NCBI GenBank assembly: GCA_963969365.1
Contig: OZ017758.1
Location: forward strand, 744,001-808,000
Length of the DNA: 64,000 nucleotides
Origin: Asterochloris sp. CNOR1
Lineage: Eukaryota; Chlorophyta; Trebouxiophyceae; Trebouxiales; Trebouxiaceae
Direction of reading: 5' to 3'
Of this stretch, positions 3,564 to 63,200 are shown piece by piece. The translations under genes and the position numbers were made by a program. The notes beneath the pieces were generated by a model, which did no database searches, had not been told where the DNA came from, and saw nothing but the letters and a program-made list of their open reading frames with translations. How positions within the stretch are numbered: the first letter of the stretch is position 1; every line of letters starts with the position of its first letter.

Positions 3564-6500
3564 TCAAATGGAGGTCCACACATCATCACCATCATCTGCA
3601 TCCGCTGAGGTGGGCGCTGCTGGCTCAGCATCATCATCGCTGTCGTCACAACCAGGATCGTATGCAGCGGTGCTGGCATGAAGCTCTGTCAGCCCAGTGA
3701 GGTCCTCTAGCACCTTGGGAGCCTGCGACATGAGGCCAGCAGGTCCACCCTGTTAACCAGACCAGGCACCTCACTGCGCCGGCCCGTAGCCCGTGCAGGT
3801 CCTCCAGCACAGCCGAAGCACCAGGCCAGCCTGAAATGCTACATGTCGTGGCTGCAGCGCTGTGCATTGCACCAACAGCCTGTGCCCTGTTGCAGCCAGG
3901 AGGCCGGCAGGATGGCAGCATGCCGAGGCTCAAAGGGCAAGCTGGTCAGGCACGTCCCGCGTCTGATGCTCCAGAAGGGCAATGCAGGACTGCAGTCTGA
4001 CGCTGACCTGCAGGGCTTCCAGCACAAAGTCCCATCCGTGCTGTTGATAGCGGTCCACCACTGCAGGGGAGCAGGCAGTGCACTGCCTGTATGCCTCCCC
4101 TGTCAGGCACATTTGGGAGAAGCCATTGAGCTGCCCCCGAACCTGCAACATGACAGAAGACTGTAGAGTGGGAGGCCAGAGGTCGATGCAGCATGATTGC
4201 AGGGTTGTCAGTCCAGGTGGTTGCAGGCACCAGCTGCTGCAGCAAAATATCTGGTGAGGACAGATGAAGCCAAGTCGGCAGCGTGGTGCCCCACCATGTG
4301 AGGGGGCAGCCCCAGTGGCAGGCTGCCTGTGCTGCCAGTGCCAGCCTTGCCCTGGTCGCCAGTGGGTGCATGCACGCCATCAGGGTGCTGCAGCGTGGCT
4401 GCCATGAGCTCGACTGCCACAGACCCTGCAGGGCAGCAGGATTATGGGTGCCATCAGCGCCAGCCAGCAGCAAAGCAAAGCAGGCAGTCAGTAGTGGCAT
4501 GAGCTCAGCTACCACTGGCAGGCACATTGCCTCTCTGATGCACAGGCCCTCCAGACACACACCAGCAACCATCTGTGCTCAAAGGCAGCAGCAACAATGG
4601 AACAGGCCACCTGACCCAATGCTCCGCCAACTTCATGCTTCAGCTCACCTGCCATTGGTGCCAGGCCGGGACGTGCCACAGTGCACTGCTGATCCAGTGT
4701 CCTGTCCACCGTCGAGTCCACAGGCGCAACGACGTCATTGCAGAAGTAGCAGCCCAGGCGCCTGCAGCCTGGCTGGTCCAGACCTGCATGTCGCACTCAG
4801 CCTCCACAGACAACACAGTATGACTAGGACTCCAACTCAATGATGGCTGGCAGCAGCATGCAGACTCTGGCTGGAGGGCCTCATGCGGCAGCAGGGCATC
4901 ACTTTGCGGAGAGCAAGTCTATGGTCAAACATTCAGCAAAATGGTGATTGCGGAGGTGTCAAAGCTTGCATGCAGCACCGCATGGCATAAGCACACACCA
5001 GTCGAGAAGGCTGAACCTTCTCTGGGAGCAGCTCCGTGCCGCATGACCAGGAACGAGTCAAACCCCAGGGCTGCATTGATTGCCAGCTTCCCATGTGCCG
5101 CTGCCAGCAGGGTGGGCAGCCACCTGCTCTCCCTGGTGTCCATCAGCAGGAACAGCACATCGTGGCTGAGTACGAGCTGTTCCAGCTGCAGGAACTCTTG
5201 GTGCACCTGCACGCAAGCCAAAACAGACACAATGGCAGTGGCAACCCAGGCAGATGGCAGACTCTGGCAGGCACAGCCGCCTGCTCGAAGCGTCATGGGC
5301 CAGGCAGCTTGGCAAGGGGCCACACACACAGCTTGCTCAAAGGCTGCAGTGCAAAACGGGGATGCACAACTTGCAGAACGACCAGAGCCTGGCATGTAGG
5401 CAGCACGTCCTCCCAGGCAGCACCCTGCATCCTTGATGCCTGCTGTCCAGGGCGGGCCCTGGCATGGGGTCCACAGCCACTTCCTCTTGCTGCGCAAACA
5501 TCAAGCATAAATAGTTGACACCCTGCCAAGACAGCTGATCTTCTGAGGCGCCTCAAGGCAGCGCCCCAAAGAAAGCTGAACTCCCACCCCAGAGGGTGTC
5601 CCCAGCATGGGCATGCACAACCAGTGTTGACAGAGGGCACAGTCAGGGCAAAAGCCTTGAAATCATATGGCCAGGCATGCAGGCAACCCACCTTTTGGAT
5701 GTCAGCCTCGCCAGACAGGGGGTGCCCCGGCATGGGGATGCACAGCTGCACCCCTTCGCTGCGCACAGAGGGGAAGATGTCGCGCAGCTTGGCAGCCGCC
5801 GCGGCAGCCTTGGGGGCTCCACCACCAGTGCAGTCCTGGAACTCGTACAGGGACTGGCGCACAGGATTGGAGAAGGCGACACGTGAGTTGTCCACGAATG
5901 AGACCGTGCGCACGCCCCAGCCCAGCAGCGTGCGAGCCACCGCACAGCCCAAGGTACCTGCAGGGTGGGAGCCCTAGTGAGGGGGCTGCAGGCTGCAGCA
6001 GCAAGCTGGAGCAATCGGTGAAGGCAGCATACAGCCTGAGGGCCAGTGTTTGAGACATGCCACGCAGGTCCTGGAGTCCGAGTTGTCAGCAGAAAGCCTC
6101 GCCAGGCCCCAGCAGAGGCAGCTTGCCCTCCGCAGGCAATCCTTTCTCAGCTGTGGGCCAGCCTGCCTAATCGAGCAATATTCCACAGATGCGAAGCAGT
6201 CAACCCCTGCCAGCTTCTGCTGCACTGCCAGGCAAGCACCATCCACGCCAAACGGGCTGGAGGGCTGCACCTGTCCCCAGCAGGAGGCAGGCAACCCTCC
6301 GCAGGGCATCTGGTTTCCAGCTCTAGGTCAGCTTTCAACAAATGACAGGTCCAGAGACATGCAGCAAACGAGTTCTAGCTGCTGCTAGACAGCCAGGCAG
6401 GCACAGTGAACGGCAGATGGGCTCCAGGGCCTCACCTGCCCCCAGCAGCAGGCAGCGCGCCTCCCTCAGGCGGTCCATGCCCAGCTCTGGGGCAGCCCTC

Positions 6501-60200: not shown

Positions 60201-63200
60201 TGTCCAGGCTCAGCAGCAGCATCAGGCCGCCTCTTTTGTGATCATCACTCACCTCTCAGGCTCTGCCAAGGCTTTCTGCGCACCTCAGGCCTGTCCAAGC
60301 TCGCATACTGCCCAGCAGCAGCAACTAGACCCCGACGCTCAGGGCAAAGTTCCGCTGTTCACCTCGAGATCCTGCCAAAGCCTCTTGCGCGCCTCAAAAC
60401 GGTCCAGGCCAGCGTACTGTCCGGCAGCGGCATTCAAGCTGCCATCATTGTTCATGATGTTGATGATGTCCAGGCTGCAGCGCTGCCCAATCTCGTAGTC
60501 GTTGGGGTCATGGCCGGGCGTGATTTTGAGGGCACCAGTGCCGAACTCACGATCCACGTACTCATCTGCAATGATCTTTATTCGCCTGCAGGGAGACATT
60601 GTCACCCATGCAGCAGGGTGTAATGCATGAGGCAGGCCAGGTCATGGCAGGATAAAGGCTGACAAGGGTTTCAGGAGTACAAACTAAGGTCACTGAGATC
60701 CAGCAGTGCCAGTTCAATGACCTATGGACAGGGCCCTTGACACACCGGGGAAGGGCAGATGCGGGCATATGATGACCTGCTGCGAGGCATGGGTGGGCTG
60801 ACCCACTTGAAGGGGAGACAGCAGGAACCTACTGGCACCTGCCGCGCAGAGGGCCCTCAGCATCCGCCCAGGACAGCCAGGTACATGCTGCCAGGCAGCG
60901 GTAAGCTGACACGCTGGAAAGAAGACAGGAGGCAGGTGCTGGCACCTGTCGCTCAAAGGGACCTGGCACTCCCGCCCCACGAGATGCCTGTAGCGCTCAT
61001 CCTCTGGGTGCACGGCCACAGCAGAGTCGCCCATGATGGTCTCAGGCCGGGTGGTGGCCACAGGAAGAAAGTCGTCAGAGTCTGCCAGGGGATACTTGAA
61101 GTGAAAGAGGGAGCCAGCCTCCTCTGTATAATCTACCTGCAGCAGCCAGGGAACTGCATGCAGGCAAGCACTGGCACAGAGCTCGCCACAGGCTGACTGC
61201 TGCTCTGGACACTTTCCTAGTTATCAAGTTGAGCAGCGTGCGGTGGCTGCCTTGAGCAGCAAAAGCCAAACTGGTGTGCACACTTAGTCTGAGCAGCGTG
61301 CAAAGGTTCTATGGGCACTCCACCGACCTCAAGGTCGGAGACTGCAGTCTGGAGATTTGGGGACCAGTTGACCATGTAACTGCCCTTGTAGATGAGGCCC
61401 TTGTCATGCAGCCTCACGAAGGCCTCCAGGACGGCATCTGCACAAGTAACGTCAGTTCTGAGTATCTACATCTCCACCCTGCGTGTTAGGCAGGGTTGAG
61501 CAGCAGGCCATGACAAGGTCTGTGGGGTGATGAAGCTGCCATTAACCCAGGAATTGAGTACAACCGAGCTTGACACTTGCGTGCCCGGCTGAACACCTAC
61601 TATACTATCAGGTGTATGGCCACTTGCTCAGCACCAGCCGCCCCAGGCCGACAAAGGCAACTCAGGACAATACACTGGCAACACACTGGGCAGCTGTGCA
61701 GCCACGTGCAAGCACTGTGCTGGCTGTTCAGCTGCAGTAAGGAGAGCCACTCCCGAGGAAATCCACATGCAGGCCACCTCTATGCCTCAGACTTCCCCAG
61801 CTCAATGGACTGCCCATTGCCAAGCTTGCCTGCTTCAGCCGAGCACATCCCACCCCAGCCTGGACCAGGCCAACAGATGTGTTTCGTTGAGGCCTGTGCA
61901 ATGCTCACCTGGACGGCCAAAACAGCTGCCGCTGATGGCTGCCCTATCAGACTCGTGAACTTGCTGCCCCAAACAGCTGAGTCACACCTGTAGGGCCAGG
62001 GCTTCATTCAGCAGCAGCAGCTGCAAAGCCTGGGGTCTGGGTGATCAGAGCAGCCTCATGCCCCACATAGGCCTGCGCACTGCTGGGCCTCTCCTTAACA
62101 GCAAAGTGGTGACTGCCACTGAGCTGGGTGTCCAGCAGGAACCCCTCGCGCCTCTAGTCACCCAGGCCCCAGGCCCTGCAGCTGCTGCTGCTGAGTGAAG
62201 CCACCACAGATGGGTACTTTCATGCCAGAGTGACCACAGGCCACCACTGAAGCCAGAGCTGTCTCTGCTGCTGACACCAGCAGGAGCTAACTGCTGACCC
62301 ATTGTGTCCAGCATGAATTGTCAAGGCACCAGTCGCAGGATGCCCCCAGGCATTGAAGCTGCTGCTAGATCCAGCCCTCAAGCTCAGCAAGTCCACCCCG
62401 AGAAGGGCCCAAGGCCACCCAGCCACCAGAGCCCAAGCCCGCCGCTAACAGACAAAAGCAATCCTATTGCGGACCCACCGCTGAGCAAGGCATCCCGCAG
62501 GAAACCCTCACGGCTCCAACTGCATCAAGTCCCGGGCATTGCAGTCCCTGCTACTTGATACAAGCCCCACCCAGCTTCTGTATCTCAGAGAGCCAGGGGC
62601 CACCAACTTGCAGGAGCTCATCCCATCCATGGACAGTAGGAGGCACCCCAACGCCAACCTACCACTAAGCTGCGCGTCCAGTGTGAACCCCTCGCGGCTC
62701 CAGTCGCAGGAGGCCCCCAGGCGCCGCAGCTGCTGCTGGATGAACCCGCCATACTGCTCCCGCCACTTCCACACCTGCTCAGTGAAGGCCTCCCGCCCCA
62801 TGCCCAGGCGGGACTTGCCCTCAGCGGCCAGCATCTTCTCGACCACCATCTGCAGCAGCAAAGACCAGCTCAAATGGTGTTAGGGCAGACACAAAGATGC
62901 CCTTGCACACCCTGTCAGCCCTGCTGCAGGGATGGACATGGAGAGGGAGGGTTGGATGGCCTCATCAGGTGCCAACTGTCAAGGGACTGAGTGCAAGGCC
63001 AACCCCCCTGCCTGAGCGGTGGAGCAGGGCATTCAGGCGTCACAAGCCAGCGCTGGCACACCTTCCTCACCTGGGTGGCGATCCCGGCATGGTCGGTGCC
63101 AGGCAGCCACAGAGTGGGCCGCCCCCTCATGCGGGCTGTGCGGGCCATGATATCCTGCAGGGCAGCAGGGAGAAGGGCCGTCATCACTTTCATGGCAAGA

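Follow-up and report, generated by a model that had tools for sequence, protein, structure and literature searches.

Why do introns of a green alga carry degenerate copies of the ends of the exons beside them? The question is raised by a 64,000-nucleotide stretch of Asterochloris sp. CNOR1 (GenBank assembly GCA_963969365.1, contig OZ017758.1, positions 744,001 to 808,000), referred to here as the window. A preliminary description of its sequence had reported such copies, which we call echoes, in at least seven genes (ATG7, a KH gene, SEC12, D-CDes, DDX10, PEPCK, and ValRS) and had attributed them to a lineage-wide process acting at CAG-rich junctions. We found that the echoes are local, directly oriented, decayed copies with a consistent placement relative to their exons, and that they occur in all three contigs sampled. 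In our judgment, with a probability of roughly 0.8, they are the decayed products of ordinary local tandem duplication of segments of about 50–300 bases, blind to position, and a junction-specific or CAG-driven process is probably not needed to account for them.

The sequence analyzed comprised the window and two 100-kb blocks from contigs C1 and C4, 264 kb in total, from an assembly of 21 contigs and 56.4 Mb in which at least 31 matches to chlorophyll a/b-binding gene fragments were present. The window has a GC content of about 58%, and its genes are intron-rich. Gene structures were obtained with a codon model seeded with recognizable peptides, followed by a self-trained, splice-aware coding model with realistic intron costs. 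This model gave coherent structures for ValRS, PEPCK, and ATG7, a donor consensus close to CAG/GTGAG, an acceptor consensus close to CTGCAG/G (the slash marks the junction), and confident exons with a median length of 189 nt. It also fuses adjacent genes and skips or misplaces some exons, so the repeat and echo counts given below are partly misclassified. The identity of ValRS was spot-checked by a PDB match, and Pfam supported ATG7 (ThiF), the KH gene (KH), D-CDes (PALP), PEPCK (PEPCK_ATP), and DDX10 (DEAD). The SEC12 product gave just weak WD40-like matches below the Pfam cut-offs, and the name is therefore that of the preliminary description alone.

Two tests compared exon ends with their own and with foreign introns. 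The first used 168 of the 221 confident internal exons, those at least 60 nt long with flanks of at least 120 nt on each side, and set every exon end against its own intron and against 99 foreign introns cut to equal length. For 15/168 exons, the 5' junction matched its own upstream intron better than any of the 99 foreign ones, and for 18/168 the 3' junction did so with its own downstream intron, 1.7 being expected in each case. On the wrong sides, no junction did so (0/168 for 5' and 0/168 for 3'), which upholds the reported rule that 5' ends have their copies on the upstream side and 3' ends on the downstream side. Reverse-complement controls over the same 168 exons gave 0–2 matches. When the exonic part of each end was used alone, the excess persisted, with 9/168 for 5' ends upstream and 12/168 for 3' ends downstream, whereas the wrong sides gave 1 and 2, respectively. 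In the second test, 563 splice junctions were each scored against their own intron and 100 foreign controls. A score of at least 30 was reached by 58/563 junctions, whereas 1.35 were expected from foreign introns, and a score of at least 36 by 35/563, against 0.07 expected. Across the 264 kb, exon ends thus resemble their own introns far beyond random ones, as had been proposed, and the excess in both tests rules out chance similarity as the source. Junctions scoring at least 30 were found in every block (19/148 in the window, 16/240 in C1, and 23/175 in C4; 0, 1, and 0 among surrogates), so the process does extend beyond the window. At a score of 20, the counts were 265 for own introns and 162 for surrogates, which would put the share of junctions with some remnant of an echo at perhaps 18%.

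Stringent calling, with a search reach of up to 800 nt from the junction, yielded 55 echoes. They touch 51 of 302 exons, and 43 of the 232 introns that separate successive confident exons contain one. Of the 55 alignments, 34 include bases from both sides of the junction, many of them extending into the intron by just a few; the earlier view of local duplications touching junctions therefore stands, but not the statement that each copy spans one. The AG or GT dinucleotide is covered in 32 alignments and intact in 24 of these, in agreement with the report that some copies keep their splice site and others have lost it. Among introns shorter than 1500 nt, those with an echo call have a median length of 534 nt (n=54), compared with 354 nt (n=495) for the others. 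Longer introns are expected because duplications would lengthen them, and the proposed lengthening is compatible with this difference; however, the difference is partly a search-space effect.

The echoes belong to a larger population of short-range direct repeats. Direct matches at 23/30 identity numbered 14–17 per 100 diagonals at distances below 200 nt, 5 at 200–300 nt, and 0 to 0.2 at 10–30 kb, and inverted matches within 5 kb numbered 17, of which 9 fell in the nearest bin. A chunk test at a score of at least 36, run on 216 overlapping chunks of the 264 kb with one far comparison per chunk, gave 93 self pairs (80 non-redundant), 0 far matches, and, after scaling, about 14 inverted matches, a figure that includes any near-palindromes. 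Introner elements, near-identical introns dispersed through a genome, would show up as far matches, of which this sample of one comparison per chunk had none. Given this dominance of short-range direct repeats, inverted or dispersed repeats were rejected as the main source of echoes. At a score of at least 33, 100 non-redundant local repeats were counted in the 264 kb. Both copies lay outside annotated exons in 38 of them (50.9 by random shift), and duplication is therefore not limited to junctions. Exon-anchored repeats (IJ+IX) made up 54, compared with 34.4 by random shift. Intron-plus-junction pairs contributed 27 of these (14.0 by random shift, a count of 27 being reached in 0/300 shifts) and exon-interior-plus-intron pairs the other 27 (20.4, reached in 6% of shifts), and there were 2 exon-exon pairs (5.4). 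The relative enrichment of the exon-anchored class is about 2.1, and a Poisson estimate puts its approximate 95% limits at 1.4 and 3.2. Residual homology between the two copies exceeded the 95% null in 22/73 cases, as tandem units would give. The signature of a spliced copy exceeded the 99% null in just 1/50, and spliced or RNA-derived copies were rejected as a source on this ground. An apparent preference for a 90-nt unit is, in our judgment, probably an artefact of detection limits combined with a falling size distribution.

These properties can be brought together in a simple scheme, whose order of events is reconstructed. A local tandem duplication would by chance take in the end of an exon. 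The same protein could then be made only if one of the two copies remained attached to the rest of the exon. Selection would keep the attached copy, and the spare, which we infer to be neutral and unused in splicing, would decay as intron, upstream for 5' ends and downstream for 3' ends. The observed asymmetry would thus reflect which copy can stay the working exon. In the exonic part only one copy drifts, and for this reason exon-anchored pairs would remain recognizable for longer than intron-intron pairs, and exon ends would consequently look like a preferred source.

The scheme was simulated by placing tandem duplications blind to position and then constraining the exon and six splice-signal bases. 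As the simulated size distribution was set close to the intron-only period, the exon-anchored period alone is a prediction; the simulated medians were 160 nt for exon-anchored and 109 nt for intron-only repeats, and the observed ones 169 and 104 nt. Identity between exon and echo at codon positions 1, 2, and 3 was 512/597, 506/593, and 471/593 (p=0.0014 for the greater divergence at position 3), that is, 0.858, 0.853, and 0.794, compared with simulated values of 0.866, 0.859, and 0.809. The simulated retention of the AG or GT dinucleotide was 0.79, and 0.79–0.88 across other settings. Third positions diverge more and dinucleotides are lost at approximately the background rate, the pattern expected of a constrained exon copy and a drifting spare. 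Blind placement yielded an exon-anchored detection ratio of 1.45, part of the observed excess. Since intron-only duplications are common and the blind simulation roughly matches the decay, the loss of AG or GT, and the periods, we regard the mechanism as probably an ordinary one.

Several observations do not fit this account easily. The observed enrichment nominally exceeds the simulated ratio. Homology stops 1–15 nt past the junction in 20/55 echoes, compared with 14–20% in five simulation settings, and the median aligned length per period is 0.31, compared with 0.43–0.58 in simulation. In one-sided echoes, identity across the junction is near background (0.413 vs 0.372, n=25; 0.456 vs 0.370, n=16). 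The codon-position fit depends on the setting, others giving 0.87–0.90 for positions 1 and 2 and 0.82–0.85 for position 3, above the observed values. Exonic and intronic alignment identities are equal (0.835 and 0.842), in a comparison biased by trimming. Missed exons, as in SEC12, inflate the intron-only class, and the periods of short arrays are multiples of 3 in 12/18 cases within exons and in 21/50 outside them, a weak sign of selection. The short homology past the junction means either that both intron copies decay faster than modelled or that the splice signal determines where the copied piece stops; we favor the first.

The second of these possibilities is close to the original proposal, in which splice junctions would be hot spots of duplication through CTGCAG/CAG microhomology, R-loops, or transcription-linked repair, and the exon end would be copied together with its splice signal. 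The early end of homology and the nominal surplus of exon-anchored repeats both speak for it. However, more than a third of the repeats involve introns only, and several echoes are homologous through nearly the whole period, intron included (length per period 0.87–1.08), namely those of the exons at C1 44169, C1 83909, and C4 5507 and at 40514 and 60946 in the window. Moreover, TGCAG, the acceptor core, is modestly over-represented outside exons in C1, C4, and the window (one per 115 nt per strand vs 176 expected from dinucleotides), so that good-looking acceptors are abundant there, and the echo breakpoints are too decayed for microhomology to be read. A special process at CAG-rich junctions is therefore not sustained, and we consider it unlikely that duplication in this lineage is biased to splice junctions with the copied piece tending to stop where the splice signal does. 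If it were, introns would grow by accretion of exon-end copies, in which former exon ends would be preserved layer upon layer, and alternative splice sites would keep arising ready-made.

Two further readings carry still less weight. Echoes might be kept as decoys that compete with or regulate the true site, or as alternative exon starts; the dinucleotides that remain intact would fit this, as would site scores at least equal to that of the real site in 3/11 acceptor and 7/13 donor echoes. Yet the dinucleotides are kept about as often as expected from overall identity, and among the 24 echoes that keep the dinucleotide, the length is a multiple of 3 in 7 and an in-frame, stop-free extension is found in 4, numbers that, at the sequence level, suggest no selection for use. 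We hold such a role to be very improbable. The echoes might instead date from the origin of the introns themselves, if these arose when an exonic AGGT segment was duplicated in tandem (Rogers 1989; Hellsten 2011; both as cited in PMC4974935), a model that shares with our data the tandem duplication and the side of the copy, and that predicts 5'-end copies upstream and 3'-end copies downstream. It also requires the copy to adjoin the far splice site, whereas the far 40% of the intron holds 0/55 echoes (within the reach of 800 nt) and the copies often include pre-existing intron sequence, as in the 34 two-sided alignments; this origin is hardly credible here.

With tandem duplication as the preferred reading, the window offers individual cases in all seven genes named in the preliminary description, six of them detected directly and SEC12 after a missed exon was recognized. 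In ATG7, the exon 6436..6663 (minus strand) has its 3' end and donor echoed at 6224–6290 (GT kept, period 165, 78% identity over 67 nt) and its 5' part at 6864–6893; a self-repeat pairs 6107–6290 with 6275–6455 at a period of 168 nt. A 3'-part echo of the ATG7 exon 5692–5957 lies at 5448..5496 (minus strand). In the KH gene (plus strand), the 3' end and donor of exon 9975–10100 are echoed at 10152..10190 (GT kept, period 87), and the 3' part of exon 12075–12232 at 12265..12312 (score 31, best foreign 23). SEC12 initially scored nothing because the gene model omitted an exon starting near 26185; in our own reading of the sequence, this putative exon has two 5'-end echoes on the plus strand, at 25930..25971 (score 39) and at 26108..26135 (score 36, with a CTGCAG acceptor). 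The D-CDes exon 32881–32988 has a 3'-end and donor echo at 33064..33115 (plus strand, GT kept, period 91).

On the plus strand in DDX10, the acceptor and start of exon 40514–40732 are echoed at 40399..40461 (AG kept, period 76), and those of exon 42566–42736 occur in four spaced copies within 42288–42586. The copies start at 42288, 42376, 42471, and 42563, at least three have a CAG acceptor, and the final two match at 96% over 51 nt; this four-acceptor array is a natural test of acceptor competition. In PEPCK (minus strand), exon 49564–49842 has a 3'-end and donor echo at 49400..49441 and a short partial echo upstream at 49915..49941. The echo at 51082..51110 matches 51222–51250 at 93% over 29 nt; judged from the letters, the latter segment is probably the true 3' end of its exon, with a GTGAGT donor at 51227–51222, and the modelled boundary at 51261 is probably wrong. 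The 5' end of exon 52332–52510 is echoed at 52567..52614 with the acceptor AG changed to AT. In ValRS (minus strand), the acceptor and start of exon 58050–58138 recur at 58279..58307 (AG kept), and exon 60363–60585 has a 3'-part echo at 60049..60106 with a second copy at 60263–60323. A 3'-end and donor echo of exon 60946–61136 lies at 60797..60857 (GT kept), its extended homology amounting to 0.99 of the 107-nt period. The 3' end of exon 62663–62849 is echoed at 62113..62206, with the donor GT changed to GC, and another copy lies at 62325–62370. A further ValRS call at 55096–55123 is marginal (score 30, best foreign 29), and one at 59174–59294 was rejected as an exon echo, being a 52-nt tandem array that lies wholly in the intron.

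No copy of a whole exon with both its splice sites was seen among the 55 calls: with extension allowed up to 200 nt, homology goes at most 119 nt into exons, against the median of 189 nt for confident exons. Elsewhere in the window, 34636–36707 holds an array of 294–315-nt units on the minus strand, with one short exon and one intron predicted per unit, that encodes a repeated acidic peptide and looks like a tandem duplication of whole exons. In block C4, a repeat of 854 nt at 86844–88730 (G000:C4:586844-588730), with 70% identity and a period of 1071 nt, exceeds the other repeats listed.

The elementary event is already known. In the potato RdRp gene, Ma, Lan and Niu (2016, PMC4974935) describe a junction-spanning tandem genomic duplication as well as an 83-bp tandem duplication within an intron. 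As there, the copies found here can hold an intron end, a splice site, and an exon end, as the two-sided alignments and those covering the dinucleotide illustrate; in potato, however, one recent copy made a new intron, whereas here the cases are numerous and decayed, the original exon being retained and the copy apparently remaining intronic. Intragenic segment duplications, some including whole introns, are cited in the same paper and likewise make segment duplication inside genes a common process, but the present cases differ in being partial exon ends that decay within introns. No description of intronic exon-end echoes was found among the titles and abstracts listed by searches on the phenomenon, and the novel part may be the systematic decayed record at about one junction in ten. 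The 2010 genome report on Chlorella variabilis NC64A by Blanc and colleagues is said to mention, perhaps, exon-like repeats in introns.

For work on this genome, the echoes are a source of false exon ends for gene finders and aligners. They also provide many natural pairs, each made up of a splice junction that has remained in use and a duplicate that apparently has not. If the density of 55 calls in 264 kb holds, extrapolation gives thousands of such pairs genome-wide, which could be used to date intron growth, to gauge neutral decay beside a constrained copy, and to test competition between splice sites.

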